The position numbers and the translations under genes are program-made. A stretch of DNA of 34,185 nt from Armatimonadota bacterium (lineage in GTDB: Bacteria > Armatimonadota > UBA5829). Position 1 is the stretch's first letter; every line of letters begins with the position of its first letter. Location of the stretch: positions 1 through 34,185 of the forward strand of contig JAAYKE010000059.1 in assembly GCA_012522575.1 (NCBI GenBank), read 5' to 3'. The notes beneath the pieces were generated by a model, which did no database searches, had not been told where the DNA came from, and saw only the letters and a list, made by a program, of their open reading frames with translations. Positions 2,849 through 34,185 of the stretch are shown here, piece after piece.

Positions 2849-3334
2849 TCAGTCGTTCTTTGGCGGGGGAATATGATTTTCGATAAGTCGCTTAGCCACC
2901 GAAGTCAGCGCCTGCGCCAACTCCTCTGGGGATATAGCTTTATCGTGGTCCTTCGTCAACGGCGAATCTGCGGCAATATATCCTTGAAATGTCAATAATT
3001 GTGCAGCAGCGACCTTCGAGGAGTCCTTCGACTGCCCGCCAGAGCCTGGAAGGAGGCCATCGTTAGCACGCGCCGATTGCTGCTTCACCTCCGGCTCGAG
3101 GCTGTTCTCTATATAATCGATCATGCTCACCAGCGCCACCGCAAGCTCATAGCGAGTGACAGTCTTGTCGCCTTTGAACGTGCCATCGGGATAGCCATTG
3201 ACCACGCCGTGCGATTTAAGCTCCTGCACAGATTCCGCCGCCCAGTGATCATCGGGCACATCTTTGAATTGATCCGAAACAGCAGGGGAGATCAGGCACA
3301 TACACAACAAAGAACACACAATGGGGATTCGCAT
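2849..3334 (-). CDS. Small exported protein with one S-layer-homology (SLH) domain
   Basis: The product has 161 residues. A signal peptide (about 1-20) is followed by one SLH domain at about 22-75, with the family pattern FKDVPDDHWAAESVQEL...GVVNGYPDGTFKGDKTVTRYELA. The remaining 85 residues are hydrophilic and unrecognised. SLH domains bind secondary cell-wall polymers or peptidoglycan, and in diderms such as cyanobacteria and Deinococcus they tether outer-membrane proteins to the wall. Only one SLH unit is present, where three is common, so it may bind weakly or act as an oligomer. The start is an ATG with an excellent ribosome site (AGGAGG, 6 nt upstream). It follows mreB by 55 nt on the same strand, so it is probably the last gene of the murA-mreB transcript. 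Confidence 0.8.
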   Translation of the reverse strand: MRIPIVCSLLCMCLISPAVSDQFKDVPDDHWAAESVQELKSHGVVNGYPDGTFKGDKTVTRYELAVALVSMIDYIENSLEPEVKQQSARANDGLLPGSGGQSKDSSKVAAAQLLTFQGYIAADSPLTKDHDKAISPEELAQALTSVAKRLIENHIPPPKND

Positions 3335-3389
3335 TTCAGCCTCCTCGTCGGGAGCAAGCGGTAAAGATAGTGCGGCAGTGCCGTTTTAT

Positions 3390-4412
3390 TTACGCCTCGA
3401 AGCCGGTCTCTATAAACTGATCCCGGATCATATCCAATTGATCCAGCGCGCGCCCGCAGCCCAGAGCCACGCAACTGGTCGGGTCCTCCGCCACATGCAC
3501 CGGTATTCTCGTCTGCTTTGACAGCAGTTTGTCAAAACCACGAATCAACGATACGCCGCCCGTCAGCATTATGCCGCGTTCGATAATATCCGAACTCAGT
3601 TCCGGAGGGGTCTGCTCCAATACCGATTTTACCCGATCGACAATCGCCATAATCGGTTCCATTAGAGCCTCGCGCACCTCGCTGGACGTAACCTCTATCG
3701 TCTTAGGCAGTCCGGCCACCAGGTCGCGTCCGCGCACCTCAAGAGCCAACTCCTGCTCCAGAGGATACGCACTGCCGATCTTCATCTTGATCTCTTCGGC
3801 GGTGCGATCGCCGATCATCAGGCTGTATTTCGTCTTGATATGACGCTGAATGACATCGTCGACCTTGTTGCCGCCGACGCGAATTGATTTCGAGCTGACA
3901 ATGCCATTCAGTGAGATGACCGCAATATCGGTTGTCCCGCCGCCGCAGTCAATTATCATATTGCCGCCAGGCGCAGCAATCGGCAACCCTGCTCCAATAG
4001 CCGCCGCAAGAGGTTCTTCGATGGGATATGCCTGTTTTGCCCCTGCGCTTTTGGCGGCCTGCACCACTGCGCGCTTCTCGACAGGGGTGACTTGCGAGGG
4101 GACAGCCACTATAATCGTGGGCTTGAGCATTCGCCTCTTGCCGCAAACCTTCGCGATCAGATATTCGAGCATCTTCTGCGTGGTGCTGTAGTCGGCTATA
4201 ACGCCCTCACACATCGGCCTGATAGCTACAATGCTGCTGGGTGTGCGACCAAGCATAAGTCGCGCTTCCTCGCCAACCGCCACGAATCGCTTGGTCGTAG
4301 TATTCACTGCCACCACCGACGGCTCACGAAGAACTATGCCTTTGCCTTTGAGATAGACAAGGATATTTGCTGTGCCCAGGTCGATACCCAGCTCAGGCAC
4401 CAGATTAAACAA
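3390..4412 (-). CDS. mreB: Rod-shape-determining actin homologue MreB/Mbl
   Basis: This 340-residue actin-family ATPase forms membrane-associated filaments that direct peptidoglycan synthesis along the cell length. Phosphate-binding motif 1 is GIDLGTANILVY near the N terminus, phosphate 2 is DCGGGTTDIAVISL around residue 155, the GDRTAEEIKMKIG segment is present, and the adenosine motif is GIMLTGGVSLIRGFD. The length is normal for MreB/Mbl. The start is a TTG at 4412 that overlaps the end of murA by 8 nt, so translation is probably coupled; GAGGGAA lies upstream. The usual mreC and mreD partners are not adjacent. A murA-mbl arrangement is known from Bacillus-type genomes, so this may be the Mbl-like paralogue and not the mreBCD copy; the sequence alone does not decide. 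Confidence 0.93.
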   Translation of the reverse strand: MFNLVPELGIDLGTANILVYLKGKGIVLREPSVVAVNTTTKRFVAVGEEARLMLGRTPSSIVAIRPMCEGVIADYSTTQKMLEYLIAKVCGKRRMLKPTIIVAVPSQVTPVEKRAVVQAAKSAGAKQAYPIEEPLAAAIGAGLPIAAPGGNMIIDCGGGTTDIAVISLNGIVSSKSIRVGGNKVDDVIQRHIKTKYSLMIGDRTAEEIKMKIGSAYPLEQELALEVRGRDLVAGLPKTIEVTSSEVREALMEPIMAIVDRVKSVLEQTPPELSSDIIERGIMLTGGVSLIRGFDKLLSKQTRIPVHVAEDPTSCVALGCGRALDQLDMIRDQFIETGFEA

Positions 4413-5688
4413 GGATTGATTCCCTCTCTATATCATTTGAACTCGATACTATTTGCGCGCCCAGCAGATTGAACTTCTCCGCCAGGTTTTCGTAACCGCG
4501 CTCCATGTGTTCCGTTCCGCTGATTACCGTTTTGCCCTCAGCTACAAGCCCGGCGCACAACAACGCAGCTCCGCCCCTCAGGTCAGGCGCAGTCACAGGC
4601 GCCCCGAAGAGCTTCGGCACTCCGGTAATAACCGCGGTGCGCCCATCCTGTTTTATCTCCGCGCCCATCCGAGCGATCTCATCGACATATTTGAACCTGC
4701 GCTCGTAGACATTTTCCCGAACAACGGATACGCCTTCCGCTATGGACAACATAACGGCAAACGGCTGCTGCAAATCGGTCGGAAAACCAGGGTGGGGCAT
4801 AGTGGTGATATCGGTAGCCATCGGCCTCGCGTTGCATCTGATCCGCATCGCGTTGTCATACATATCAACAATCGCGCCCACTTCGCGCAGCTTCAGAACA
4901 AACGGCTCAATATGATCGGGGCGGATGCTCTCCACCGTCACATCGCCTCTGGTTATAGTTGTGGCCACCGCAAAAGCGCCGGCTTCCATCCTGTCGGAGA
5001 CGATCTCAAACTCGACGCCGTGCAGTTCCTTGACGCCTTCGACCCTCACAATGGGAGTGCCCGCGCCATGAATAATAGCGCCCATCTTTGTCAACAGGTT
5101 AGACAACTCCACAACCTCCGGCTCCATAGCCGCGTTATGGATAGTGGTCACTCCCTGTGCAAGACAGGCCGTGGTCATAATATGCTGAGTCGCCCCTGCG
5201 CTGGGCAGGTTAAAATATATCTGCGTACCGTGCAGAGTATCGCTTTCAGCCTCAACATAGCCGTGTTCTATATTGACCACTGCTCCGAGAGCCTGAATGC
5301 CTTTTACATGCAAATCAATTGGTCTGGCGCCGATATCGCAGCCGCCCGGCATCGCTACCTTAGCGTAGCCTCGTCGCGCCAGCATCGGACCGAGTACACA
5401 GAAAGAGGCCCGCATCTTCTTAACAAGTTCGTAAGGGGCCTCCGTGGATTCTATATCGGTCGCATCAATGCGGACCACGCCTTGCGCGAGTTCATCACAA
5501 CCAACCCCCAAAGCCCTGAGCATGTCCATCATGGTGCGGACATCCCCAATCTCAGGGACGTTGTGCAGAATAGTCTCACCTTTGCCGAGCAACGCCCCTG
5601 CCATAATGGCAAGAGTGCTGTTCTTGCTGCCGCTGGAACGTACTGTTCCAACCAATCGCGCGCCGCCGGTTAATGAGAGCTTGCCCAA
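4405..5688 (-). CDS. murA: UDP-N-acetylglucosamine 1-carboxyvinyltransferase MurA
   Basis: MurA transfers enolpyruvate from phosphoenolpyruvate to UDP-GlcNAc, the first committed step of peptidoglycan synthesis, in the cytoplasm. The 427-residue length is normal for the family. The conserved lysine is at residue 22 in SGSKNS, and the catalytic loop PGGCDIGARPIDLH carries the cysteine (about residue 117) that is the fosfomycin target, so a fosfomycin-sensitive enzyme is expected. The start is a TTG at 5688 with AGGAGG nine bases upstream; no ATG gives a better fit. The gene is first in an operon with mreB and the SLH gene, which ties wall-precursor supply to shape control. A strong promoter lies at 5758-5787. 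Confidence 0.96.
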   Translation of the reverse strand: MGKLSLTGGARLVGTVRSSGSKNSTLAIMAGALLGKGETILHNVPEIGDVRTMMDMLRALGVGCDELAQGVVRIDATDIESTEAPYELVKKMRASFCVLGPMLARRGYAKVAMPGGCDIGARPIDLHVKGIQALGAVVNIEHGYVEAESDTLHGTQIYFNLPSAGATQHIMTTACLAQGVTTIHNAAMEPEVVELSNLLTKMGAIIHGAGTPIVRVEGVKELHGVEFEIVSDRMEAGAFAVATTITRGDVTVESIRPDHIEPFVLKLREVGAIVDMYDNAMRIRCNARPMATDITTMPHPGFPTDLQQPFAVMLSIAEGVSVVRENVYERRFKYVDEIARMGAEIKQDGRTAVITGVPKLFGAPVTAPDLRGGAALLCAGLVAEGKTVISGTEHMERGYENLAEKFNLLGAQIVSSSNDIERESILV

Positions 5689-5948: not shown

Positions 5949-7493
5949 TTATGCCCCGTGTTTGCGGTTGTTCTTGTCACGTGCAGACCTTCTCAGCTTA
6001 ACGGGAGCCGAAACCAGACCTATCAATGCAACCACAATGCTGGCGTAAGGCAGCCAGTCTCCAAATAGCGTATATATGCTCAAATCGTGGCTCGGCGTTA
6101 CCTCACAGGTGATTATCCCTTCTTCAAACAGCCCGATTTGATGTCGAATCCGCCCTGTCGGATCGATCACCGCCGATATTCCAGTGCCTGCCGCCCTCAA
6201 CAGAAACCGCCGGTTCTCAATAGCCCTCAGCCTCGCCATCATCAAATGTTGTTCGGCGGCTGATGTGCGTTGAAACCAGGCGTCGTTGGATACCACGCAC
6301 AACACCTCCGCGCCGCGATAGGTCTCGTTGCGCGATATATGAGAAAAAGTGGACTCAAAACAAATGCTGGCACCTATTTTGCCGATTGGAGTATCGATTA
6401 GAACGTGTTCTTTGGCCGGACACAAGTCCTCGTCCCTGATCCCGTATCGATCCAGAAACCGCAGTTTATTCCTGAGAGGCACAAACTCTCCATACGGAAC
6501 CAGATGCGCCTTTCTATACGATCCGGTCAGCTCTCCGCTCGCATCAAAGGCAAGCAAGGCATTATAAATACAACTTGAATCTATCGGGTCGGGCACTTCA
6601 TATCCGCCAACCAGCAAACAGGTATTTGACGCGACGGCAATATCGGCAATAGTGTTGATAATATAGCCATCGGAAATATCTGTGGGTATCGCAGATTCCG
6701 GCCACAAGATGACAGAGGGCTTGCTTTTAGCCGCAAGCTGCGTCAGGCGGGAGTATTTCTCAATAGCCATTGGGATGAAGTTGGGTATAGGATTGAAATC
6801 GTTTTTCATATTTCCCTGCACAATGGCTATCTTGCGTCCGTGATGGTCAGGCTCAAAACCACGCAGGCTCACCATCCCAAATATCAAAACGCCTCCTACC
6901 AATGCTGCGGCTGCATACAACGGCGTCATCGATCGAGGCTTGTTGTCGATCGCCGCACTTATCGCCAGACTAACAAAGCAGAGCAGAAAATCTATTCCCC
7001 ACGCCCCGGTTATGGACGATATCTGCGCTATGGGCAGGCAATTTGCCTGGCTGTGAGCTAAATTGCCCCAGATAAAAGCGTAAGGGCTGAGGCTCCTCAA
7101 AAACTGCAGAGCCGTCCACGCGGCAGGCACAGCCAAATATCCCAGTTTCCCGATTCGGTGCGGTGCGACTCGAACATACAACACGCCAAACACAGCCAGA
7201 TACAGAGACTGATATATAGTCAACAACACCCAGGGCAGTGTGCCGAAAAGAGCCACCCAGCGCAGAATGATGGCGTAATAAATTATCCCTGCTATCAATC
7301 CCTGCAATGCCGCCCGGCGCGCGTTGGCGACTCGCAAAGCCAGCATCAGCGGAACGAGTCCGACCCACGCAGCTATCCACCAACCCGGCCCGGGCATAGA
7401 AGTCGCCAGAATCAAACCGCACGCCGCGGGTAAAATTACGTGACGAAATCCCCTAAGCGCGTTATAATAAGTGGCAATGACCATGTTTGGCAT
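5949..7493 (-). CDS. lnt: Apolipoprotein N-acyltransferase Lnt
   Basis: Lnt adds the third acyl chain to the N-terminal cysteine of lipoproteins in the inner membrane, allowing their sorting. The N-terminal part is a series of hydrophobic transmembrane segments (roughly residues 15-210), followed by a periplasmic nitrilase-fold domain. The catalytic triad is visible: Glu in ILWPESAIP (about 266), Lys in RKAHLVPYGEFVP (about 328) and Cys in GASICFES (about 378). One more hydrophobic segment ends the protein. The length (about 514 residues) is typical. The start is uncertain: GTG 7502, ATG 7493 and ATG 7484 are all possible and none has a clear ribosome site; I chose the middle one. The 5' end overlaps the divergent lipoprotein gene, a plausible substrate of this enzyme. 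Lnt presence supports a diderm cell. Confidence 0.93.
   Translation of the reverse strand: MPNMVIATYYNALRGFRHVILPAACGLILATSMPGPGWWIAAWVGLVPLMLALRVANARRAALQGLIAGIIYYAIILRWVALFGTLPWVLLTIYQSLYLAVFGVLYVRVAPHRIGKLGYLAVPAAWTALQFLRSLSPYAFIWGNLAHSQANCLPIAQISSITGAWGIDFLLCFVSLAISAAIDNKPRSMTPLYAAAALVGGVLIFGMVSLRGFEPDHHGRKIAIVQGNMKNDFNPIPNFIPMAIEKYSRLTQLAAKSKPSVILWPESAIPTDISDGYIINTIADIAVASNTCLLVGGYEVPDPIDSSCIYNALLAFDASGELTGSYRKAHLVPYGEFVPLRNKLRFLDRYGIRDEDLCPAKEHVLIDTPIGKIGASICFESTFSHISRNETYRGAEVLCVVSNDAWFQRTSAAEQHLMMARLRAIENRRFLLRAAGTGISAVIDPTGRIRHQIGLFEEGIITCEVTPSHDLSIYTLFGDWLPYASIVVALIGLVSAPVKLRRSARDKNNRKHGA
7440..7468 (+). promoter_or_regulatory. Promoter of the lipoprotein gene, probably giving a leaderless transcript
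   Basis: GTGACG (7440-7445, four of six to TTGACA), a 17-nt spacer and a perfect TATAAT (7463-7468). The predicted start of transcription falls on or next to the ATG at 7477. The promoter lies inside the first codons of the divergent lnt gene. Confidence 0.5.
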
Positions 7494-8199
7494 ACGAATC
7501 ACATCGTTTATTTTAGCATTGATTATACTACCTATGCTAACCGGGTGCGCCAGCTATCCGGAAGGCCCTGTGACGACCGGAAAGCAACTGATCCTTACAA
7601 TGAAGGTGCAGGGCAGAATAAACCCGTACGATTCCCTTACTCCCGGCGTTCAACGGCACTACTTCATTGCCATTGATAACGACGGCGATCCCGAAACCGG
7701 CCCGTGGGCTGCCATTGCACAACCCTACGGAGGAACCGGCTGGGTCACATCAAAGGACGCCGCGCGCAGCGTAGGTCTGACATCGTATATTCAATATGAT
7801 TCCACCAGCCCCGAAGGCTATATCGTCGGAGTGCTGCCCGGAACATATTTTCAGAACGAAACCGCTCCTCAGCCGCCCATTCTATTCGAATTGCCCGCAC
7901 CGGACACTATGCGCGTTACAATTGATTTCAGCCAAATCGCCACCTCAACTATTCCTGCCGACGAGATAAAGCAACTGGACATTAACTTTATCACAACCAA
8001 TGCCATCCCCAAATCCGGGGAATTCGCGCCCGGCAGAATCTGGGACGGCCTCGGCCCTACCGGCCAAAACTATGTCAAGATAGACACCACACGCGATAAC
8101 CCCTACTACGACTACAATTCCGACGGCCCGCCAGTCAGCGATCCGGACCTCAAAATCGTCTACTGGTCAATAGAAGTGCGAACGATATCGTTCAAATAA
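7477..8199 (+). CDS. Putative lipoprotein of unknown function
   Basis: The product has about 240 residues. A hydrophobic signal segment ends in the lipobox MLTGC (cysteine near residue 23), so the mature protein should be lipid-anchored. The rest looks beta-rich and polar, with patterns such as HYFIAIDNDGDPETGPWAA, WVTSKDAAR and FELPAPDTMRVTIDFSQI; I do not recognise the family. The opening resembles secreted beta-sandwich domains, but that is only an impression. GTG 7471, ATG 7477 and ATG 7483 are possible starts; ATG 7477 fits a -10 box ending nine bases earlier, and no ribosome site is seen. It is divergent from lnt with overlapping 5' ends and convergent with the gene ending at 8545. No obvious operon partner. 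Confidence 0.75.
   Translation: MTMFGIRITSFILALIILPMLTGCASYPEGPVTTGKQLILTMKVQGRINPYDSLTPGVQRHYFIAIDNDGDPETGPWAAIAQPYGGTGWVTSKDAARSVGLTSYIQYDSTSPEGYIVGVLPGTYFQNETAPQPPILFELPAPDTMRVTIDFSQIATSTIPADEIKQLDINFITTNAIPKSGEFAPGRIWDGLGPTGQNYVKIDTTRDNPYYDYNSDGPPVSDPDLKIVYWSIEVRTISFK
7513..7540. promoter_or_regulatory. Inverted repeat around a -10-like box in the lnt/lipoprotein divergent region
   Basis: Perfect 7-bp arms TTAGCAT (7513-7519) and ATGCTAA (7534-7540) are separated by 14 nt. Between them the minus strand carries a perfect TATAAT (7522-7527), which could be the -10 box of lnt; no good -35 box is seen. The site lies within the signal-peptide codons of the lipoprotein gene. A regulator-binding role is inference. 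Confidence 0.3.
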
Positions 8200-14409: not shown

Positions 14410-15990
14410 ATGAAGCGTTGGACCTACGTTTTGGTACTGGTCCTTTTTTTAGGGTCGCTGATTGGCTGGCGATTAGTACAGAAACAAGCAGAAAACAAAG
14501 CCGTTGCAGGAATGAGGGAGACACGTAAAAACGCTCCCTCCCTGGTCTCCACAGAAACCGCTGCGATACGAGATATTGTAAAAAACTTCAATGCCACCGG
14601 CACTGTAGAATCTCCGCAGAATGTGAAAATAGCCTCCAAGGTGAGTGGCAGAATCGACTATCTGGAGTTGCGCGAAGGGGATAAAGTCAAGCGCGGCCAG
14701 GTGTTGGTTCGCATCGATCCCCGGCAAATCGAAGCCGAAGTCCACAGGCAAAAGGCGGCTCTTGCCGAGGCGCAATATCGTCTGGCTCAGGCAAAGATCA
14801 ATCAGAACTCCACCAATGTCGGCGTGAATGCTCAAATACGCCAGCAGGAGGCGTCTCTGTCCAGCTCTCAGGCCGACTTAAAACAGGTCAGGCAAAACTA
14901 CGAAGCGCAGCAGGCGGCGGCCAATGCCGGCGTGACCGATGCTGCGGCGCGAGTCAAAAATGCGGAAGCCGGAATAAAAAGCGCCCAGGCTAACCTCGAT
15001 AATGCGCAGGCCAGGCTCAATCGAATTATGGATCTCTACCAGCAGGGTTTTGTGGCCGCCCAGGACGTCGATGATGCCAAAGCAGGGGTCAGCGTGCAGG
15101 AATCGGCTGTCGATATCGCAAAAGGTCAGCTCAATTCGGCCACCGCACAGCGTGAAGCAGCGCAGCAGCAGGCAGATATTGTAAAGACAAAGGGTAAGGC
15201 CGACATCGCGGCATCTGAGGCAAAAGTCGAGCAGGCCAGGGCTTCTCTGGAGTATGCACAGGCTAATATCTCACAAAAATCCGCCTACGAACAAAGCCTG
15301 TCCGCATTGCAGGCCGGCGTGGATGCCGCAAAGGCGTCCCTTCGAAGCGCCGAGGCGCAAAGAGCCGATACGGTGCTCGTCTCACCTCTGGATGGAGTGG
15401 TAACCGGACGCCACGTCGATCCCGGCGCGATGACCACGCAGGGCCAGCCTATCCTCACTGTGCAGTTCGTTCAGCAAGTCTGGGTGACGATTTCAGTGCC
15501 GGAGGAGATCAGCGCGATGGTGCATTTGGGTCAGAACGCAGTCGTATCGTTCGATGCACTCGCAAATAGAAAGTTCAACGGCAGCGTGGTGCAGTATAAC
15601 CCATCCGCGGACGTGCAGAGCAGGCAGTTTATGGTGCGGGTCAGCCTGGATAACAAGCAGGGTTTGTTTAAGACAGGCATGTTTGCCCGCGTCGCTTTGG
15701 AGATTGAACGAGGCAAGGACCTTGTTTGCGTGCCGAGAGAAGCGATAAAGCAGACAAATGGCGACACCTATGTGATGGTTGTTGAAAGCAGCAAAGATGG
15801 TGAAGTCGCTCGGAGGAGAAACATCGTAATGGGGATGTCCGATTCCGGGTTCACCTCTATTGCGCAGGGGCTTGAAGCCGGTGAAAAGGTAGTTATGTTA
15901 AGCGCGTTTCCGGTTCGTGATGGAGCAAAAATCATAACCGGAGATGATAACAAACGCCCGGGCGCTGGAGGAAAGCGGGGCAAGCCGTGA
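14410..15990 (+). CDS. RND efflux periplasmic adaptor (membrane fusion protein)
   Basis: This 526-residue adaptor links the inner-membrane RND pump to the outer-membrane channel. An N-terminal membrane anchor (about 4-22) is followed by the first half of the lipoyl domain (IASKVSGRIDYLELREGDKVKRGQVLVRIDP, in pieces around 76-110), a long Ala/Gln-rich coiled-coil hairpin (about 110-315), the second lipoyl half (VLVSPLDGVVTGRHVDPG) and the beta-barrel and membrane-proximal domains. The hairpin is much longer than in AcrA-like adaptors and nearer to EmrA/HlyD dimensions. The C terminus is a basic, Gly-rich tail. The ATG has GAGGGA upstream. The stop overlaps the next gene's GTG, so translation is coupled. 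Substrates cannot be told from sequence. Confidence 0.93.
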   Translation: MKRWTYVLVLVLFLGSLIGWRLVQKQAENKAVAGMRETRKNAPSLVSTETAAIRDIVKNFNATGTVESPQNVKIASKVSGRIDYLELREGDKVKRGQVLVRIDPRQIEAEVHRQKAALAEAQYRLAQAKINQNSTNVGVNAQIRQQEASLSSSQADLKQVRQNYEAQQAAANAGVTDAAARVKNAEAGIKSAQANLDNAQARLNRIMDLYQQGFVAAQDVDDAKAGVSVQESAVDIAKGQLNSATAQREAAQQQADIVKTKGKADIAASEAKVEQARASLEYAQANISQKSAYEQSLSALQAGVDAAKASLRSAEAQRADTVLVSPLDGVVTGRHVDPGAMTTQGQPILTVQFVQQVWVTISVPEEISAMVHLGQNAVVSFDALANRKFNGSVVQYNPSADVQSRQFMVRVSLDNKQGLFKTGMFARVALEIERGKDLVCVPREAIKQTNGDTYVMVVESSKDGEVARRRNIVMGMSDSGFTSIAQGLEAGEKVVMLSAFPVRDGAKIITGDDNKRPGAGGKRGKP

Positions 15991-18900
15991 GCATAGCCCA
16001 ATTTGCGGTCAGCCGCCCTGTTGCGGTAGTAATGCGTATTGCCGCGCTTGTTCTTTTGGGGATCGTCTGTATCGGCAGGTTGCCCGTCGATTTGCTGCCG
16101 AAGGTATCGCTTCCAACCATATCCGTTATGACGGAATGGCCGAACGTGGCTCCGGAGGAGATAGAAGCGCAGATAACGCGTCCAATCGAGCGCGCAGCAT
16201 CGCAGGTCACCGGCCTGTATCAAGTCACCTCCACTTCTATGCAGGGCATATCCCAAGTGCGCGTTCAGTTGCAGTGGGGAACCGATATCGGTCAGGCGGC
16301 AGTCGAGGTGCTGCAGCTCGTCCAGAGGGCAAAACGACAGTTTCCAGTCGACCAGACGCTCAGGGATCCCATCGTGAACAAGTTTGACCCCAACCAGATG
16401 CCGATTCTGGTCTTTGGTATCACTGGCATGAAGGATACGGTCAAGCTGCGCACGCTGATTGACAATCAGATATCTCCTATTATCGAATCAGCGGATGGAG
16501 TAGCCTCGGCGACTGTGACCGGCGGAGAACAGAGGGCGATAGTAGTCGATGTCGATCCGGAACGTCTGCGTGCTCATCATATCCCTCTCAGCAAGGTTAT
16601 CAGCAGGCTGCTGGCGGAGAACCTCAATCTGCCTGCGGGAATCGCCAAAGAGAGCGACACCGAATACACCATCCGCAGCCTTGGCTGGTTCGTTAGCCCG
16701 TCTGAAATAGCCAAAATGCCGTTGGGGACATATAACGGTCAGTTGATTTCACTCGGCGACGTGGCGGCTATCCGCGACTCCCACAGCGAAACTCGCGCTT
16801 ATGCCCGACTCAACAGTGAACCCTCAGTTGGGTTGACGATCACAAAGCAGAGCGCGGCAAACACGATCAGCACCGCCGACTCCGTTTTTGAGCGTGTAGA
16901 GAGGGTCAAACAGCTCTATCCTGAGCTTAAGTTCGGCCTTGCGTTTAATCAGGCTGCCTATATCCAGGATTCCGTCAACAACGTCAGGGACGCGGCGATT
17001 CTCGGCGGCATGCTGGCCGTTTTAATTCTGCTTTTCTTTTTGCGCAACGTCCGCAGCACGCTTGTTGTGGCTCTTTCTATTCCAACATCGATCATCTCGA
17101 CTTTTGCGCTGCTTTATTTTTGCGGCTTCACTATAAACACTATGTCGCTTGGAGGGTTGGCGCTTGCTACAGGCTTGATTGTGGATGACGCCGTCGTGGT
17201 GCTGGAGAATATATTCCGGCATATTGAGCGCGACAAAAAATCCCCTCGCGAGGCGGCTGTCACCGGCACTATGGAGATTGTTTCTGCGGTAGTCGCCTCC
17301 ACATGGACCGTTATGGTAGTCTTTTTGCCCTTGCTGCTGATCAAGGGACAGGCCGGGCAGATGTTCACGCAGTTTGCTCTGGTCGTCATATTCTCCCTTG
17401 CGGTATCGCTTCTGGACGCTACTACCATCGTGCCTATGCTGGCGACGCGGTTTATTACCACCGACGCCCATCAGGATCCATCGGAAGTCTCCTCAAAGCG
17501 CGGCCTGCTGTCAGGGTTTTTCTCCTGGGCAGGTGTAGTGCTGGGAAATCTGGACGCCACATATCGCAGAGGGCTGGAATGGGCGCTGGCGCATAGGAAG
17601 TTCACTTTAATAGGCGCATTCGCCCTCACAGCCTGCAGCTTTTTGCTGCTTCCGTTGATTGGCAAGGAGATGATGCCACAGTCGGACAGCGGTGACTTCA
17701 ACGTTGGAGTAAAACTGCCCGTCGGGACTGCGCTCGATACCACCAATAAGGAAATGTCAAAGATCGAAAAAATCGTTCTGAGCAATCCTAATGTCGGCAC
17801 TAGATTCTCATCTGTCGAAACGGGACGCGGGCCGAGATCTCTAACTCCGTATCAAAGCTCATTGACTGTCAAGTTAAAAGACAAAAGAGATCAGACCACC
17901 CAGCAGGTTATGTCCGATTTGCGCCGGCAGCTTATGTCTTTGCCGGGAGTCAACGCCCGTCCGACGCAGCGTGACATTGTTGCGCAGATGATGACCGGAG
18001 GCAATTCGAGCATCGAAGTTGACATCTTCGGCGACGACCTCGGCGAGCTTTCCCGGGTTTCAAAAGAAGTCATGATGAGCCTGCGCGGCATACCGGGTCT
18101 GGAAAACGTCGATGTCGGATGGGAAGAGGCAATGCCGGAAATACAGTGGATTGTTGACCGGGATAAGGCGCAGCAGTTGGGAGTCAGCTTTTCGGAAGTT
18201 GCCAATGTAATCGGCACTGCCACCAACGGAACCATCGCCACCTACTATCAGGAAAAAGGTTTTCAGTATCCCATTATCGTCCAAATGCCGGAGTCTCGAC
18301 GAAAAACAGCCAGGGAGATGGGCAATTTGGTCGTGCGCACAGGGACTTTTGAGAGCGGATACAACGATGTTTTGCTGAATCAGGTTGCTCAGCCCACTTA
18401 TGGCTATGGGCCGAGTCAGATCGACCGAATGGATCGCAGACGATATGTTGCGGTGGTGGGCATGCCGCAGGGCAGGGCGTCGAGCGAGATACAGGCCGAC
18501 ATTCAAAAGGTGATGGACAGCGTAAAGATGCCCTCCGGATTTTATTGGGACTGGGGCACGAACCAGAAGCGGCAGGCCGAGGAGTTCGGAGGCATGGGAG
18601 TGGCGGTTCTGCTGGCGATTGCTCTGATCTATATGCTGCTTGCCAGTCAGTTCGAATCACTAATACACCCGCTTACGATATTATTTTCAGTGCCTCTGGC
18701 GGCTACAGGTGTAATTTTGGGACTCTTCCTGACGGGTCGAACATTTGGGTTAACTGCCTTTATTGGCGTGTTGATGCTGGTGGGGATCGTGGTCAAAAAC
18801 GGCATTTTGCTGGTTGACTACACCAATCAGCTTCGTAACAGGGGAATGGATCGCAAGCAGGCGCTGTTGACGGCGGGGCCGACTCGATTGCGCCCGATTC

Positions 18901-19109
18901 TGATGACCGCCGCCGCCGCTGTCTTTGGAATGCTGCCTCTTGCTCTTGCACTTGGCAAGGGATCGGAAATCCAGGCTCCTATGGCGACTTCCGTCATCGG
19001 AGGGTTGATCTCCTCCACTTTCCTCACCCTGTTCGTTGTCCCGGCGGTCTACACCGTCTTTGATGATATCGCGTTGTTTATTCAACGAAAGCGCAAGGGT
19101 TCGGTATGA
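15987..19109 (+). CDS. RND multidrug-type efflux transporter (HAE-1/AcrB-like)
   Basis: This is a 1040-residue proton-driven inner-membrane exporter of normal AcrB length. It begins with FAVSRPVAVVMRIAALVLLG (TM1) and has the porter domain, a central TM bundle with the paired aspartates in LIVDDAVVVLENIFRHIE (TM4), and in the second half VGIVVKNGILLVDYTNQLR (TM10) with the relay lysine. The proton-relay residues are thus intact. The metal-exporter (HME) signature is not evident, so an HAE-1-type drug or small-molecule pump is favoured. The start is a GTG in a GTGA overlap with the adaptor stop, and its end forms an ATGA overlap with the MarR gene. Expression is probably controlled by that MarR protein through the palindrome at 14317-14341. 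Confidence 0.95.
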   Translation: MSIAQFAVSRPVAVVMRIAALVLLGIVCIGRLPVDLLPKVSLPTISVMTEWPNVAPEEIEAQITRPIERAASQVTGLYQVTSTSMQGISQVRVQLQWGTDIGQAAVEVLQLVQRAKRQFPVDQTLRDPIVNKFDPNQMPILVFGITGMKDTVKLRTLIDNQISPIIESADGVASATVTGGEQRAIVVDVDPERLRAHHIPLSKVISRLLAENLNLPAGIAKESDTEYTIRSLGWFVSPSEIAKMPLGTYNGQLISLGDVAAIRDSHSETRAYARLNSEPSVGLTITKQSAANTISTADSVFERVERVKQLYPELKFGLAFNQAAYIQDSVNNVRDAAILGGMLAVLILLFFLRNVRSTLVVALSIPTSIISTFALLYFCGFTINTMSLGGLALATGLIVDDAVVVLENIFRHIERDKKSPREAAVTGTMEIVSAVVASTWTVMVVFLPLLLIKGQAGQMFTQFALVVIFSLAVSLLDATTIVPMLATRFITTDAHQDPSEVSSKRGLLSGFFSWAGVVLGNLDATYRRGLEWALAHRKFTLIGAFALTACSFLLLPLIGKEMMPQSDSGDFNVGVKLPVGTALDTTNKEMSKIEKIVLSNPNVGTRFSSVETGRGPRSLTPYQSSLTVKLKDKRDQTTQQVMSDLRRQLMSLPGVNARPTQRDIVAQMMTGGNSSIEVDIFGDDLGELSRVSKEVMMSLRGIPGLENVDVGWEEAMPEIQWIVDRDKAQQLGVSFSEVANVIGTATNGTIATYYQEKGFQYPIIVQMPESRRKTAREMGNLVVRTGTFESGYNDVLLNQVAQPTYGYGPSQIDRMDRRRYVAVVGMPQGRASSEIQADIQKVMDSVKMPSGFYWDWGTNQKRQAEEFGGMGVAVLLAIALIYMLLASQFESLIHPLTILFSVPLAATGVILGLFLTGRTFGLTAFIGVLMLVGIVVKNGILLVDYTNQLRNRGMDRKQALLTAGPTRLRPILMTAAAAVFGMLPLALALGKGSEIQAPMATSVIGGLISSTFLTLFVVPAVYTVFDDIALFIQRKRKGSV

Positions 19110-19579
19110 CAAAAGACACACATTCAGATGAGGACGCCAAAGGCGATTCTTTGCTCCTCAAACAAAGCGAGGATATGGTCGCGGCATTCTCGGCGTTGAT
19201 GCGGAATATGTTTGCATTGGCCTCCGACGACCTGTCTATGGAATTGCCGGGAGCGCAGCTTCGCGTATGCGGAATGCTTTGGGATGGCCCAAAAACCATG
19301 ACTGTGCTCACCGAAGAAATCGGCATCACGCACAGTGCAATCACTCAGATCGCGGATAGACTCGAAAAAGCGGAAATGGTGGAGCGTGTGCCTGAGGCTG
19401 ACGATCGACGCTGCAAAAAACTGGCTCTTACCGCCAAAGGGATCGCAGTATTGGAGGATCGCCGCAGGCGCAGAGTATTGAGGGTGATGAACATCCTGCG
19501 GATGCTTAGCCTGGAGGAACGCGATGAAGTCGTCGGTGCGCTGAGGACTGTAGCAAATGCCAGCCTCCGATTTAAGTGA
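19106..19579 (+). CDS. MarR-family transcriptional regulator
   Basis: The protein has 157 residues, a normal MarR size. The winged helix is seen at about 70-120, with LTEEIGITHSAITQIADRLE as helix-turn-helix and VERVPEADDRRCKKLALTAKG as wing. The N-terminal segment LLKQSEDMVAAFSALMRNMF would form the dimer interface with the C-terminal helices. MarR proteins usually repress their own operon and release DNA on binding small aromatic compounds. Here the gene is third in the efflux operon, joined to the transporter by ATGA and followed 14 nt later by the TolC-like gene, an arrangement that predicts autoregulation of the pump. Confidence 0.92.
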   Translation: MTKDTHSDEDAKGDSLLLKQSEDMVAAFSALMRNMFALASDDLSMELPGAQLRVCGMLWDGPKTMTVLTEEIGITHSAITQIADRLEKAEMVERVPEADDRRCKKLALTAKGIAVLEDRRRRRVLRVMNILRMLSLEERDEVVGALRTVANASLRFK

Positions 19580-19593
19580 CGGGAAAGGACGAT

Positions 19594-20967
19594 ATGGTGC
19601 GATTACGACCTTTATTCATAACGACCGGCCTGATAATATGCTCAATGAATGCGTTCGCCGAGCAGACAGCGCCGATTCAGCCAAAAATCAAGGAGACTCC
19701 GCTGCCGCCCGCGATAACGCTTCCTGCGCCGGAAAAAACTCCTGCGGATGTGCCGAACCGTCCCCTTACAGCCGAAGAAGCAGCCCGCATAGCCCTGACC
19801 CATCAGCCAAACGTCGCAATAGCGCAGGCGGGTGTTGTCACGGCTAAAGGCGGCGTGACCCGGACTAAAGCCGCTCTGTTGCCCACGGTAGCGGGAGCGG
19901 GCAGCTACAACTCCATCGCTCACGCGCCGGCAACCGATTTTCCCGGCACGGGCGCGGCTACAGGGTATCAGCTCTCTGCAAACGTCAGGCAGCTTATTTT
20001 CGACTTCAATCACACCAGGGATCTGGCTAAGCAGGCGTCTCAGAAACTACGCGCCGCCAACGCCAATATGACCAAAGTGGAATCGGACACGGTGTTGCGC
20101 GTAAAGCAGGCGTTTTATGCCTATGCCCAAAGCACGAAGCTTGTCGCAGTCAACGAGGCCAACGTCAAAAACGCGCAGAGTCATCTTGCGCTGGCGCAGG
20201 CCAGGCTCGATGCGGGCGTAGGTCTGCCTACGGATGTCGTGAGAGCGCAGACCGCGGTGGCGAACTCCATATTTAATCTCAATCTGGCGCGAAATACGGC
20301 TTCTCTGGCCGGGGTATCCCTTGCGGAACAAATCGGCATCGACCCAAGGACGCCGATAGTTCCGGCGGATACGGGCGAATCGGAGATCGATATTGACGAC
20401 CTTGTCGCTCTAACGCAGCAAGCCCTCGAATCCCGCCCGGAAGTCGCGCAGGCGGAGGCAAACCTGTCAGCCGCAGGCTATTCGGTCAGCGCAGCAAAGA
20501 CCTCAAGCGCTCCTGCGGTATCGGCCAACGCCGGCTGGATGCAGCGCGGAACGGATTTCCCTCCTGGCAATAACACGCTCACCTACGGCGTCGCTTTGCA
20601 GTGGACTCCGTTTGATTCCGGCCTGACTGCCGGTCGAGTTGAAGAGGCAAGAGGCGCGTTGCTGGCTGCCGAGGCGGATATGGAAGCTGCCGAACTAAAG
20701 GTCACATCCGATGTGTCACGCGGATACGTCGATCTGAAAACCGCCGAGCAGAGAGTGATAACCTCCGAGGCCGAGGTAGCAAATGCGCTGGAAGCTCTGC
20801 GGCTGGTCGAAGGCAGATACAAATCCGGGTTGGGGACATTTCTCGATGTGCTAGACGCGCAAACTGCCTATATCAATGCCGACAGCAACAAAGTAAACGC
20901 GCATTTTTCGGTGGATCAAGCCAGATCCGCCCTCGCACACGCCATTGGCCGACCGCTGACGAAATAG
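19594..20967 (+). CDS. TolC-like outer-membrane efflux protein
   Basis: This outer-membrane channel partner of the pump has 457 residues. A signal peptide (about 1-22, ending at AFA) is followed by a short proline-rich linker and two outer-membrane-efflux-protein repeats: about 50-240 (LTAEEAARIALTHQPNVAIAQ opening) and about 265-450. The second repeat carries typical coiled-coil segments ending in ALRLVEGRYKSGLGTFLDVLDAQ. No lipobox cysteine follows the signal peptide, so it is TolC-type, not OprM-type lipoprotein. The ATG at 19594 has AAAGGA just upstream; the longer GTG start at 19576 would overlap marR and lacks a ribosome site. It ends the efflux operon; I see no strong terminator in 20968-21064. 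Confidence 0.92.
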   Translation: MVRLRPLFITTGLIICSMNAFAEQTAPIQPKIKETPLPPAITLPAPEKTPADVPNRPLTAEEAARIALTHQPNVAIAQAGVVTAKGGVTRTKAALLPTVAGAGSYNSIAHAPATDFPGTGAATGYQLSANVRQLIFDFNHTRDLAKQASQKLRAANANMTKVESDTVLRVKQAFYAYAQSTKLVAVNEANVKNAQSHLALAQARLDAGVGLPTDVVRAQTAVANSIFNLNLARNTASLAGVSLAEQIGIDPRTPIVPADTGESEIDIDDLVALTQQALESRPEVAQAEANLSAAGYSVSAAKTSSAPAVSANAGWMQRGTDFPPGNNTLTYGVALQWTPFDSGLTAGRVEEARGALLAAEADMEAAELKVTSDVSRGYVDLKTAEQRVITSEAEVANALEALRLVEGRYKSGLGTFLDVLDAQTAYINADSNKVNAHFSVDQARSALAHAIGRPLTK

Positions 20968-28384: not shown

Positions 28385-29116
28385 ATGGCCTTTGAGATAA
28401 TAGATGCCAATACAGTCTTTGGCCCGTGGCCGATTGTGCGAGCGGATATGCCGGTTGACAGGCTGACAAAAGCGCTCAGCAAACACGGAGTGTCGCAGTC
28501 TATTGCGATTTCCACCGTGGGAGTTCTGCACAATTACGGGGATGGCAACAACGAGACCCTTAGATTGTGTTCCGAACAGGGCGGGACTTTGATCCCGGCT
28601 GCAACGATAGATCCGAGGGGATATTTCGGCGCAAAAGGGCTGGCGGCAAAGCTGGCGGAAGCCGGATTCAAAATGTTTCGTTTTTTTCCGCTCATTCAGG
28701 AGTGGCCGTTGGATCATTCGGCGTTTTGTGATATGCTCGATGACATTGAGCCTGTCGGAGCCCCTGTGATGATTCAGGCCAGGGAGACCGGATGTCCGAG
28801 CGCTTTGCAGCGGATTTTGGGCGGGCGCGATATCACTTTTATTCTCGAAGGCATTTCCTTTGAGAATATGGCCGAGGCGGTTTCGGTGATGCGAAAATAT
28901 CCGAATATCGTGTGCGATACGCGAGAGCTTCGAGTGCCGGGCGCGTTGCGATTCCTGGTAGATCAGGTCGGAGCCGACCGCGTAGTCTTCGGCTCGGGAT
29001 GCCTGCGCAGTTCCCTTGCGGCCGCGCTGGGCTATGTGATGGATGCCGATATCCCCGACGAGGCCAAAAGCGCGATATTGAGCGGCAATATAAAGCGCTT
29101 GCTGGGAGGTGCTTAG
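28385..29116 (+). CDS. Amidohydrolase-like (Amidohydrolase_2 type) protein, first of a tandem pair
   Basis: The 243-residue protein looks like a short TIM-barrel of the metal-dependent hydrolase superfamily. It opens with FEIIDANTVFG, where active members have D-x-H-x-H, so both first-strand histidines are missing. Later segments fit the family: PAATIDPRGYFGAKGLAAKL, FRFFPLIQEWPLD, and the end RVVFGSGCLRSSLAAALGYV with IPDEAKSAILSGNIKRLL, which mimics the usual VLFGSDxP...I...N..RLL ending but has Cys/Gly where Asp would be. It may therefore be non-hydrolytic. The ATG has GGTGAGG six bases upstream. Its stop codon directly touches the start of the second copy. Confidence 0.75.
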   Translation: MAFEIIDANTVFGPWPIVRADMPVDRLTKALSKHGVSQSIAISTVGVLHNYGDGNNETLRLCSEQGGTLIPAATIDPRGYFGAKGLAAKLAEAGFKMFRFFPLIQEWPLDHSAFCDMLDDIEPVGAPVMIQARETGCPSALQRILGGRDITFILEGISFENMAEAVSVMRKYPNIVCDTRELRVPGALRFLVDQVGADRVVFGSGCLRSSLAAALGYVMDADIPDEAKSAILSGNIKRLLGGA

Positions 29117-29857
29117 ATGGCAATTATTGATCTTCATGCCGAAATCGGCACCACGCCGGTGTGGGGAGTATCGTTTTCCGAGGCCAACCTCACCCGCAGT
29201 ATGCAAAAATACAACGTCCAGCGTTCGATCATCTCATCAACCATCGGCAATTCATGTGACTTTCGTCGAGGCAATGCTCAGATCGCCAGAATCGTCGAGG
29301 CCAACAAGTCGATGCTTGGCTGTGTGGTTGTGAATATGAACTATCCCGAGCAGTCGCAAAAAGAGATGCATGCATATCTTGCCCAAAACGAGTTTGCCGC
29401 TCTGTTGCTCACTTCAGGGCTGCGCGGACGCCATGTCACCCTTGCGGAGACAGAGGAAATACTAAACGCGCACAGAAGATTTGTTAAACCGGTCTTTTTG
29501 CACACGCCAAATCAGGCCGCAGCACTTGCGGCAAATGAGATCGCCAAAACGTTCAACATCATGAAATTCGTGTTGATAGGCATGGGTGGGGACGGCTGGC
29601 GGATGGCGACATTACTTGCCGAGAGAACCCTCAACCTTGTATTGGAAGTATCAGGCTCGTCGAGTCCGGACAAGATAAACTTTGCAGTCGAACGGATCGG
29701 CGCGCACAGGATGGTCTACGGCAGCGGCCTGCCTTACGTGGACCCGTCTGCCATAATTGGCCTGGTTCAGGATGCCGATATAAGCGATTCCGATAAGCGC
29801 AATATATTCCAGGGCAGCGCTCAGCGATTATTCGGCTGGAAGCGGAGCCAGGAATAG
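29117..29857 (+). CDS. Amidohydrolase-like protein, second of a tandem pair
   Basis: The 246-residue protein is a homologue of the preceding one. It opens with IIDLHAEIG, retaining one histidine of the D-x-H-x-H motif, and has the same architecture: SIISSTIGNSCDF, ALLLTSGLRGRHVTL, KPVFLHTPNQAAAL, and the end HRMVYGSGLPYVDPSAIIG followed by ISDSDKRNIFQGSAQRLFGW. The final catalytic aspartate (usual GSD) is a glycine (GSG), so metal-dependent hydrolysis is doubtful. GGAGGT precedes the ATG within the end of the first gene. Tandem placement after gltX and before thioredoxin suggests one transcript; the pair could form a heterodimer. The substrate is unknown. Confidence 0.75.
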   Translation: MAIIDLHAEIGTTPVWGVSFSEANLTRSMQKYNVQRSIISSTIGNSCDFRRGNAQIARIVEANKSMLGCVVVNMNYPEQSQKEMHAYLAQNEFAALLLTSGLRGRHVTLAETEEILNAHRRFVKPVFLHTPNQAAALAANEIAKTFNIMKFVLIGMGGDGWRMATLLAERTLNLVLEVSGSSSPDKINFAVERIGAHRMVYGSGLPYVDPSAIIGLVQDADISDSDKRNIFQGSAQRLFGWKRSQE

Positions 29858-30426: not shown

Positions 30427-31626
30427 ATGGCCTCTACGATCGGCGCTGGCGCTGGGGAATTTGATGAGCGTCTTGTTAGTGTAATTCAAAATGAGTTAGC
30501 GCAGGGAGAACAGGTAGTAGCTCAGGAAGCCGGAGACCAGGGGCAGGCTATAGCCCTGACCGGGTTACGTATCATAATCGCTAAGGCCGGGCTTTCAGCA
30601 ACCGGAGAATTGCACGGCCTCAAAGTCGGTTCTTTCAAATTATCCGACATTACGGCGGTCAACCTCCGCAAAGGGCCGCTCGGAGCAGTGATTCAAATAT
30701 GCGACGATGCCGCAGATAACGCATCAGTTGGGCCGAGGCCCGATAACATCATTGTCTTTACCGGTGCGGACAGAGTCAAGAAAGCGCAGGCTTTTGCCTC
30801 TGATCTGGAGGCTTTGACGCAGATGTCCGTGAATCGGATAGACCCGACCAGCAAACCGGTGAAGGAAGCCGCCGCCGTTGTAAAACCTGCCGCTCCTGAA
30901 GTGCAAGAAGCTGATGAGGCCGTTGCACATGCCGAAGCGGTCGAGGCGTCGCCAGAGATCGCTGCGCCCGAAGAATCAATTCCCCAAGAGCCGGAACCAG
31001 AAGCTCGATCGGCTTTCAAACCGAACCCTCGTTTGCCGAAATCCGTTCGAAAAAAGGAGATTGGCCCAAACAGGATGCTCGTTGCGTTTGGCGTGCTTGC
31101 CGCCCTGGTATTTGTCGGCATGGCCATAATGGCTCCTCTGCACGATGCACAACTGGAATCTGCGCCGATTGGCGTATCCGGAACAAGTCAGCTCAACAAT
31201 GTCAAACTGCAGGCAGCCGCTATATCCAACTACGCCAATTCCATAGATAAGTTGCTCAGCAAAGCCAACTCCACCACAGATGCGTTCAAGGCCGTTGTCA
31301 GAAGCTCCGACAAGAACGCGATACTCTCAGCCAGCAGATCGTTGATATTGGATCAGGTTTTTAGAGAAGTGGCGGATATGAGCGCGCCTCCCGGATTGGC
31401 AGCAGCCAAAGAGGACCTTGTGGAAGGGCTGTTGTCACGCAAAAATGCTGTTGCCGCCGCTGCCGGAGCTGCGAGTTCCTCCGAGGCGATGAATGTGCGC
31501 GCATTGTTGTCACGCTTCGATGAGGCAGACAAACAAATCAGTCGAGGCAGATCCAACATCAGGAACGCCAATGCAGCCGCAGAACTCAAAGTGGCCGAAT
31601 TGTCCGGTTCGGGCAAAAAGCAATAG
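30427..31626 (+). CDS. Membrane-anchored protein with PH-like N-terminal domain, function unknown
   Basis: The 399-residue protein has three parts. Residues about 12-135 look like a bacterial PH-type domain (QNELAQGEQVVAQEAGDQG, AIALTGLRIIIAKAG, FKLSDITAVNLRKGPLGAVI), the pattern of short-chain bPH/YokE-like domains. Residues about 150-205 are a flexible Ala/Glu/Pro-rich linker. One transmembrane segment (about 217-238, LVAFGVLAALVFVGMAIMAP) is followed by a mostly helical domain. With no signal peptide, the PH-like part should be cytoplasmic and the helical part outside (inference). The ATG has GAGGGAG upstream. It is convergent with grpE; the 50-nt gap shows no strong terminator. Confidence 0.75.
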   Translation: MASTIGAGAGEFDERLVSVIQNELAQGEQVVAQEAGDQGQAIALTGLRIIIAKAGLSATGELHGLKVGSFKLSDITAVNLRKGPLGAVIQICDDAADNASVGPRPDNIIVFTGADRVKKAQAFASDLEALTQMSVNRIDPTSKPVKEAAAVVKPAAPEVQEADEAVAHAEAVEASPEIAAPEESIPQEPEPEARSAFKPNPRLPKSVRKKEIGPNRMLVAFGVLAALVFVGMAIMAPLHDAQLESAPIGVSGTSQLNNVKLQAAAISNYANSIDKLLSKANSTTDAFKAVVRSSDKNAILSASRSLILDQVFREVADMSAPPGLAAAKEDLVEGLLSRKNAVAAAAGAASSSEAMNVRALLSRFDEADKQISRGRSNIRNANAAAELKVAELSGSGKKQ

Positions 31627-31676: not shown

Positions 31677-32234
31677 TCAGGGTTTAGTCGCCACCTTGAC
31701 ACGTGATGGCCGCAGGACTTTGCCGTTAAGCGTATAGCCCTTTTCGATCTCTTCAATTATGGTGTTGTCCTCATATTCATCGGTCTCTTCAAGCATCAAA
31801 GCCTCGTGATACTCAGGGTCAAACTGCATTCCGACAGCTTCAATCGGCTGCAAACCCTCCCTGGCCAGCATTTCTAGTATATGTTTGAGGGTTAGCGTTA
31901 CGCCCTCTACCAGCGATTCGTAGCTGTGTTCGGCTTCGGCGGCCTGTAGCGTGCGGTCGAAGTTGTCTATGAGCGGGAGCAGTTTCAAGATCAAATCTTC
32001 TCGCACAAGACCATTCAGGCGCGTGACCTCATCGCGCTGCCGTTTACGATAGTTGTCAAAATCGGCCATCACCCGCAGATAGCTGTTTTGGGTGTCTTCA
32101 ACGCTGCACTTCAGGCTCTCGATCTCCTGTTGCAGAGCGTTTATGTCCAAATCCATCTCATCCTGATCCGCGTCTTCTTCAACTGGAGCTTCAAATTCGA
32201 TTGGCGCTTTGTTGGCTGGATTATTTTTATTCAT
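31677..32234 (-). CDS. grpE: GrpE nucleotide-exchange factor of DnaK
   Basis: GrpE releases ADP from the Hsp70 DnaK. The 185-residue protein has an acidic N terminus, the long dimer coiled coil (about 30-85, with [17 protein letters not shown] as family signature), [13 protein letters not shown], and the C-terminal beta domain ending [21 protein letters not shown] longer reading frame to 32288 exists, but the ATG at 32234 has AGGAG five bases upstream and does not overlap the chaperonin gene. It follows the group III chaperonin by 31 nt on the same strand, so they are very likely co-transcribed. dnaK, dnaJ and hrcA are not in the window, so its partner must be elsewhere. Confidence 0.95.
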
Positions 32235-32265
32235 CTTACTCCTCGGCTTGCTTACAAGCGAACCT

Positions 32266-33813
32266 TTATCCGTCTTCTCCCTCGTCACGTTTTCTGATAA
32301 TCGTATTTATCCGCAGTATTGCTTCTGCAATCTCCGCTGCTGTTCTAAGCGCATGCAGCTTGACCGCAGTAGGGTCAAATATGCCGTTTGCGATCATATC
32401 CGCGATCTCACCCGTATCACAGTCTATGCCTAGACAGTGCGACCCGGCTTCATGTTGCGCTACTATCAAATTCTCCACTTTCTCAAGGGGATTTAATCCC
32501 GCGTTTGCCACTATGCATCCCGGAGGTTTCTTCAGAGCCGCCGCTACGCAGTCGATTCCGTATGCCGCCATGCCTCGCGCGCTTTCCCTGATCGCCTGCA
32601 CGTGTCTCAATGCAGCGATTTCAATTGCGCCTCCTCCGGGGACGATTCCCGATGAGACAGCCGCCTGCAATGCTCCTGCGGCGTCTCGGGCGACTCTCTG
32701 ACGCTCATCTTTTACCTCTCTGGTCGATGCGCCAATCAACACTGTGGCCATCTTTGCGTCGCTGTCGCCAACTACCCGAATATGATTCAGCCTTTCATCC
32801 TCGTATACCCGACCGCAGACGCCCAAAAAACTTTTCAGCTCATCCGGGCTTTTTGCAAGTCCGGCCCTCTTTATCGTCCTTGCGCCGGTCAACGCTGCAA
32901 GAGACGCAATATCGCGCGATGACAGCCTGCGCACGGCCAGTATCCCGGCATCTACCATCAATTCCTCGGCAACAGGGTCAATGCCTTTAGCAGTGGCAAC
33001 GAATCCGACTCCCAGGTCAATCAACTTCTGTATGTTGGCGCGGAACTCTTCCTGCATTGCGATATGACGCGCGAATCCGGATTCCGTAGCCAGAGCCTCG
33101 TTTTCGACTTGCGGAGGCTCCAGCGCCTCGTCGACTATGAGCACGAGCGGATTTTCGACCGCCGTCGGCATCTGTTTGCTGGCGCGCTGCTTATCGAGTA
33201 TCATCCCGTTGATTACTTCACTTTGAGCGCCCTCGGCGGCGACCACAGAATCCGCCAGTCGAAACCCGGCTGACTTCAGCGTCTCCTCACCTATCAGGCG
33301 CGCAGCTTTCACCACCATATCCGCGATTTCCGCATTGCCGCGTGCAGCGATGAGCGCAACTGCAAATACGGCCTCATCGTTCACTGAGACTTCCGTTGAC
33401 TTCGATGCAACGAATGACAGCGTGTCACTTATGCCCTGTCGAATGCCTTCGATAACCCTGGTTACGGGCACTCCTTTGGATACATGCCCGACGCCTTCGG
33501 CTATAAGCGCAGCAGCCAGAATAGTCGTCGTGGTTGTGCCATCGCCGATCTCTTCTTCCTGCGCCCGCGCCGCTCGTATCAGCATTTTCGCCGCAGGATG
33601 AGCGGTGTCGATCTTATCCAGTATAGTCGCGCCATCGTTGGTTACGGTGACATCGCCGAACTTGTCGACCAGCATACAGTCCAGCCCTTTCGGCCCGATA
33701 GTGCCCTCGACGGCAGCGGAAAGGGAGCTTATCGCCGATGAATTGGTCATAAGCGCGGCTAATCGCTCATCGACATCGGTTGTCTTGGAGACTTGTTTTA
33801 CGTGGCTGCTCAT
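32266..33813 (-). CDS. Archaeal-type (group III, thermosome-like) chaperonin in a bacterium
   Basis: The 515-residue ATP-driven folding ring subunit is of the thermosome/CCT type, not GroEL. Signatures are [28 protein letters not shown] (in pieces, residues about 38-64), [18 protein letters not shown], the ATP-site motif GDGTTT at 90-95, and [14 protein letters not shown] near 400. Such chaperonins carry a built-in lid, so no GroES is required. Bacterial members (group III, first characterised in Carboxydothermus) are rare and have been reported next to dnaK-system genes; here the neighbour is grpE. The C terminus is acidic and lacks a GGM-type tail. The ATG has AAGGA eight bases upstream. 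No CIRCE element is seen before it, so HrcA control is not supported. Confidence 0.93.
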
Positions 33814-33845: not shown

Positions 33846-33875
33846 ATTATGGCACACTCAGGGGACTGCCGTAAA
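33846..33875 (-). promoter_or_regulatory. Possible promoter of the chaperonin-grpE operon
   Basis: On the minus strand, TTTACG (33870-33875, four of six), an 18-nt spacer and CATAAT (33846-33851, five of six). The leader would be about 25 nt. This is a modest match; a heat-shock-specific element was not found. Confidence 0.35.
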
Positions 33876-33956: not shown

Positions 33957-33984
33957 TTAGAGGTTAGAAGTTAGAGGTTAGAAG
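33957..33984. repeat. Perfect 14-bp tandem repeat built of heptamers
   Basis: TTAGAGGTTAGAAG occurs twice without a gap, that is, four heptamers of the form TTAGA(G/A)G. It lies between the chaperonin gene and the terminal palindromic element, in the same relation as the heptamer repeat at 206-231 has to its element. The function is unknown. Confidence 0.7.
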
Positions 33985-34020
33985 AGTTATTGAGAGGGTT
34001 ATGCGTAGCCTCCAAATTTT

Positions 34021-34137
34021 GTCATTCCGAGGCGAAAGCCGAGGAATCTGCTTTTTCCCATCTCTTTTCCGGGTTTCGGTTCTTTCGTGCTTTCGCGATT
34101 TACGGAAAATCAGATTTCTCACTTCGTTCGAAATGAC
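34021..34137. repeat. Palindromic dispersed repeat element, right copy
   Basis: Arms at 34021-34056 and 34106-34137 are imperfect inverted copies, both beginning GTCATT(C/T)CGA when read inward and running to a TCTG(C/A)TTTT end. The left arm contains GGC-GAAA-GCC flanked by ATTCC and GGAAT, so each arm can fold alone. The arm sequence matches those at 233-333, but here the GTCA ends are outside. The stretch 33814-34185 holds no credible gene; the ORF crossing it only translates the repeat. An additional small palindrome (GTCCGA...TCGGAC) lies at about 33929-33948. Confidence 0.65.
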
Positions 34138-34185
34138 ATAGTGTGTGTGGCTGGGACTGAGGCTAGTCACTACAACCACAAAGAG

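Follow-up and report, generated by a model that had tools for sequence, protein, structure and literature searches.

When a chaperonin gene is followed directly by grpE, with neither dnaK nor dnaJ behind it, the two genes might form a specialised unit of their own, or they might be what is left of a larger heat-shock operon. This question is raised by a locus at the end of a contig from a member of the Armatimonadota, which an earlier note had taken for an unusual, reduced chaperonin–grpE unit. The window that we analyzed is this entire contig (C15; 34,185 nucleotides), one of the 189 that make up a 3.06-Mb genome. The evidence leads us to regard the pair as, in all likelihood, a functional two-gene operon, the central part that remains of an ancestral heat-shock operon of the HrcA type. 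The features of the locus are the following:

32266..33813, minus strand: Group III chaperonin subunit (cpn), 515 amino acids, ATG start; recognised by Pfam Cpn60_TCP1, PDB and Foldseek matches and by its place in a tree
32266..33813, minus strand: domains of the chaperonin, equatorial, intermediate and apical, with a built-in lid
31677..32234, minus strand: grpE, nucleotide exchange factor of DnaK, 185 amino acids from the ATG at 32234; recognised by Pfam GrpE
32235..32265, minus strand: spacer of 31 nt between the cpn stop and the grpE ATG
33846..33875, minus strand: weak sigma-70-like promoter candidate upstream of cpn, TTTACG-N18-CATAAT
33964..34185, no strand assigned: copy of a dispersed repeat at the contig end, outside the operon, which limits the upstream view

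Only 372 bp are visible upstream of the chaperonin gene before the contig ends. The terminal repeat, about 220 bp long, has copies in some 40 contigs of the same genome at 84–93% identity, and the ending of the contig on such a dispersed element probably explains the fragmentation of the assembly; short pieces similar to it also occur in genome G235. On the other side of the pair, the gene past grpE (30427–31626) lies on the opposite strand. Profile searches of the window recovered neither dnaK nor dnaJ, and the sole match to the HSP70 profile (3390–4412) is MreB. Elsewhere in the window are an RND efflux set read in one direction (HlyD-type adaptor, AcrB-type pump, MarR regulator and outer-membrane channel; 15987–19109 with 14410–15990, 19106–19579 and 19576–20967), a gene for a 756-amino acid protein with two stretches resembling formylglycine-generating enzyme (FGE-sulfatase; 391–2661), and two adjoining amidohydrolase-2 genes that are alike and fall in the same cluster (28385–29857).

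The product of 32266–33813 is a Group III chaperonin. It matches Pfam Cpn60_TCP1 (E = 1.8e-115), and the motifs by which the earlier note had recognised a thermosome-type subunit are all present (IGPKG at residues 39–43, GDGTTT at 90–95 and VPGGG at 391–395). Among PDB sequences the best natural chain is 5x9u with 416 bits, the best natural thermosome reaching 225 bits; two engineered ancestral proteins also score in this search. With the AlphaFold2 model (pLDDT 85, pTM 0.78) as query, Foldseek returns 5x9v and 5x9u first (TM 0.86 and 0.84), and thermosomes rank lower. The phylogeny that had been proposed as a check places the protein inside Group III, apart from Group II (support 99) and Group I (100), each of which is separate, Group III itself forming one branch of a split supported at 86. 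A thermosome (Group II) identity is excluded by the tree and by the NCBIfam thermosome models, which score 289–292 bits, below their cut-offs of 400–671. A GroEL (Group I) identity is likewise excluded by the tree, and the GroEL of this genome is a separate gene, accompanied by groES, on contig C166. As the earlier note had assumed, the host is bacterial and the gene is no archaeal contaminant: It follows host taxonomy, nesting within a clade from the host's GTDB family (100) and one from the host's class (96), and those relatives that carry a name, matching at 65–69%, come from Armatimonadetes MAGs.

The best natural match by both sequence and fold is Ch-CPN of Carboxydothermus hydrogenoformans (PDB 5x9u/5x9v; PMC5635000), to which the window protein is 41% identical over the Foldseek alignment. 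Like Ch-CPN, it has no nucleotide-sensing loop (there is a six-residue gap relative to thermosomes after G159) and it keeps the equivalents of Arg155 and Asp373 (R158 and D377); the ATPase residues D60 and D91, which are the Asp of the NDG and GDGTT motifs, are also present. The lid is shorter than in thermosomes. Four of its residues, Leu237, Phe243, Tyr246 and Phe253 in Ch-CPN numbering, have been called strictly conserved (PMC5635000); the Leu and both Phe are common to the two proteins, but Tyr246 is replaced by His250 in the window chaperonin. This position varies in other Group III members too (Y in 54, H in 8, F in 5 and R in 1 of 68 sequences), so that strict conservation of the Tyr does not extend to the larger sample. 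The window chaperonin also departs from the published habit of Group III in being encoded away from dnaK, which lies on contig C26, with grpE found only beside cpn. Location in a dnaK operon is a genomic habit of Group III and not a defining property of the protein.

The downstream gene matches Pfam GrpE (E = 8e-47; 159.4 bits, cut-off 25.8) and NF010738 (155.7 bits, cut-off 137). Its longest open reading frame starts at a GTG (32288..31677) and would overlap cpn by 23 nt; the ATG at 32234, which has a GAGGAG Shine-Dalgarno sequence, yields exactly the 31-nt tandem spacing given in the earlier note. No terminator-like site was found in the 31-nt spacer, which folds no better than its shuffles (z = −0.49), and the arrangement suggests that the two genes are probably co-transcribed. 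The end branch leading to the window GrpE has a length of 0.84, against 0.05–0.34 for most of its family; the adjoining chaperonin stands out less.

That dnaK and dnaJ are lacking, as the earlier note had claimed, is correct for the visible transcript but not for the genome, where the search that it had suggested recovered groES, groEL, dnaK and two dnaJ, all on other contigs. The genes for dnaK, hsp20, dnaJ and a MerR-type (hspR-like) regulator stand together on C26, groES–groEL on C166 with a CIRCE element upstream, dnaJ2–prmA–rsmE on C185 without dnaK, and hrcA alone on C34. Nor does dnaK lie just past the end of the window, since it is situated inside its contig and in an operon of its own. 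No second dnaK was found beside dnaJ2–prmA–rsmE or elsewhere in this genome. Because the window grpE is the single match in the genome, and hence the only copy, its product is the only GrpE available to DnaK.

Control of the pair is less easily read. The suggestion of joint control of the chaperonin and the Hsp70 exchange factor is plausible in the sense of co-transcription, but no CIRCE precedes the pair, while the groES of the same genome has one with a single mismatch; because of this, joint control of cpn–grpE with Hsp70 appears doubtful on sequence grounds. Neither a clear CIRCE nor a clear HAIR was found before cpn, nothing there was CIRCE-like above chance, and the promoter candidates upstream, three against 2.1 expected, are no more numerous than chance would give. 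The dnaK gene is preceded only by a HAIR-like site with three mismatches, which is too weak to claim control by HspR. In most hrcA–cpn–grpE loci of the Armatimonadota, hrcA is present with no recognisable CIRCE (at up to three mismatches; G221 is the exception), unlike in Bacillota. The strongest of the weak CIRCE-like sites in the phylum, with three to four mismatches, are upstream of hrcA in G220 and G221. HrcA in Armatimonadota may read another operator at these loci.

According to published accounts, Group III genes reside, one exception apart, in dnaK operons (PMC5635000, PMC5220055), and our Bacillota comparison agrees. Within one Bacillota phylum, 102 of the 299 sampled genomes have a Group III chaperonin, and all 40 loci examined, which were spread across the score range, read CIRCE–hrcA–cpn–grpE–dnaK–dnaJ with zero or one mismatch in the CIRCE before hrcA. 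The window resembles this operon in that grpE stands immediately behind cpn and on the same strand; it differs in that no hrcA, CIRCE, dnaK or dnaJ adjoins the pair, within an upstream view that ends at the contig edge.

If the missing dnaK were peculiar to the window, one might suspect a special module, but this is not the pattern within the phylum. Of 291 Armatimonadota genomes, 41 encode a Group III chaperonin, and 40 of these loci are evaluable, one stopping at a contig edge. In 33 of the 40, grpE lies downstream of cpn on the same strand (directly in 32 and behind a 3.6-kb insertion in one), mostly with gaps of −119 to 252 nt; in seven it does not. A dnaK follows grpE in only two (G192 and G193), each with a second dnaK elsewhere, such that 31 of the 33 pairs, and hence 31 of the 40 evaluable genomes, have the arrangement that had been called unusual. 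Several relatives without the chaperonin have hrcA–grpE without dnaK and with no cpn in between (G045, G056, G180, G218, G219 and G229), or a lone grpE (G242); as in the window, the grpE of the hrcA–grpE loci is far from dnaK. Because these relatives also keep grpE apart from dnaK, the missing dnaK is a trait of the phylum and not the mark of a special reduced module. Since the GrpE proteins of G242, G229, G218 and G219 nest among those of chaperonin carriers in the tree, the chaperonin was probably lost several times from this very position next to grpE. Two loci are irregular. At the one with the insertion (L022 = L056; G235), the approximately 3.6 kb between cpn and grpE (1745–5384) include a duplicate of the cpn end (a 77-amino acid ORF, 3007–3240), and a TnpB/Cas12f-like gene (6627–8102) lies downstream of grpE. 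At the other (L090, G202), the grpE behind cpn is split across two frames (7564–8035), and this genome has no other complete grpE; the split reflects sequencing error or decay.

The surroundings of the pair are less stable. Upstream of cpn, hrcA is found in 24 genomes. No member of the window's family has it immediately before cpn: in one genome it is 1.7 kb away, and in those others whose upstream sequence is long enough it is not nearby. The genes that flank cpn–grpE on either side in this family differ between genera. Nearly every genome has a single grpE. It is beside cpn in 33, five have it within the main dnaK operon (G203, G204 and G206–G208, the linkage in G206 and G208 being read from coordinates), and in two it is linked to neither (G191 and G230). 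It looks as though a redundancy was settled in different ways. The main dnaK genes, mostly in the order dnaK–hsp20–(grpE)–dnaJ–MerR, form one clade in 20 of 20 sampled cases (support 97). A second type of dnaK is present in five genomes, where it either belongs to the cpn operon (G192 and G193) or forms dnaK2–dnaJ2, with prmA–rsmE behind it in G228 and G230. Intermediate arrangements also exist: f26 has hrcA–cpn–grpE–dnaK2, and f2 and f3 have hrcA–cpn (with grpE next in f2) and, elsewhere, dnaK2–dnaJ2–prmA–rsmE.

Under the explanation that we favor, the ancestral operon would have been hrcA–cpn–grpE–dnaK2–dnaJ2–prmA–rsmE and would have broken after grpE in Armatimonadota; in the window's family, hrcA would also have moved off and dnaK2 been lost, with dnaJ2–prmA–rsmE left on another contig. 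The chaperonin would act like its solved relative, as an ATP-driven double ring, of 16 subunits as expected of Group III, whose own lid closes over clients with no need of GroES. To judge from copy number, the sole GrpE would work in trans, serving the DnaK encoded in the separate dnaK–hsp20–dnaJ–MerR/hspR-like operon, and the missing motif suggests that the pair would stand outside HrcA/CIRCE control. Counting against this account, the second-type DnaK stands apart from the DnaK of Bacillota, the sequence ahead of cpn is cut short by the contig end, and the comparison of the two phyla, which stops short of their common ancestor, only partly separates breakage from the genes never having been joined.

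The pair might instead be a dedicated module, in which GrpE-driven release from DnaK hands clients directly to the Group III ring, so that both proteins must be made together. The retention of adjacency in 33 of the 40 genomes despite turnover of the outer neighbours argues for this, as do the 4-nt start/stop overlaps in G241, G244, G232, G233, G257 and G209 and the same adjacency in Bacillota. However, seven genomes have cpn with no adjacent grpE (f30, f29, G191 and G230), four relatives (G242, G229, G218 and G219) lost cpn and kept grpE, the single GrpE must serve DnaK generally, and in genomes from outside the window's family hrcA remains next to cpn almost as frequently; we therefore consider a dedicated module unlikely. 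That cpn and grpE have stayed together for so long would be expected under selection on their linkage, but also from the inertia of a short operon. It seems to us quite improbable that the chaperonin stays with grpE, and not with dnaK or dnaJ, on break-up of the Hsp70 operon because GrpE and the Group III ring perform consecutive steps, GrpE triggering the release of clients into the chamber, the coupling being to the exchange factor and not to DnaK.

Explanations invoking a foreign origin fare worse. A recent horizontal gain of a Bacillota chaperonin–grpE fragment by the window lineage might be suspected from the frequency of Group III in Bacillota and from one tree that set Armatimonadota among Bacillota. 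Yet the Armatimonadota Group III proteins form one clade (99, in the wider tree) that follows families and order, such that entry is at least as old as the class, and the window GrpE groups with its own family (99), making a recent gain highly implausible. We also reject transfer of the whole operon from Bacillota, because the second-type DnaK groups apart from that of Bacillota. For the older history, the first tree placed Bacillota inside Armatimonadota and the wider tree the reverse, and an AU test did not reject Bacillota as one clade (p-AU = 0.61); the phylum may thus have received the chaperonin by vertical descent or by one old transfer, in either direction. We give almost no credence to an assembly chimera or contamination, by which a foreign Group III locus was binned into a genome without one. 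The pair does lie close to the contig end (372 bp), and the same-genus genome G234 shows neither gene, but the pair recurs in eight other members of the GTDB family, with which the window protein clusters (100). Moreover, the remainder of the contig aligns with G234 at 67–74%, the G234 contig stopping 132 bp after the match and before the pair, and the window genome contains about 40 copies of the end repeat. The apparent absence from G234 reflects a contig end and not gene loss.

We conclude that cpn–grpE without dnaK, most probably the remnant of an HrcA-type operon, is a real but modest variation on the known dnaK-operon theme. Published accounts favor transfer of Group III from an archaeon to Firmicutes (PMC12696368), and the spread of these chaperonins across many Armatimonadota families is a point for that debate. 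That Group III chaperonins cooperate with DnaK has been argued chiefly from the location of their genes in the dnaK operon (PMC5635000, PMC5220055). Armatimonadota provide a natural test of this argument: The chaperonin persists in many families after the link to dnaK was broken, and therefore a transcript shared with dnaK is not needed for its retention. Armatimonadota also preserve steps in the dismantling of a heat-shock operon.
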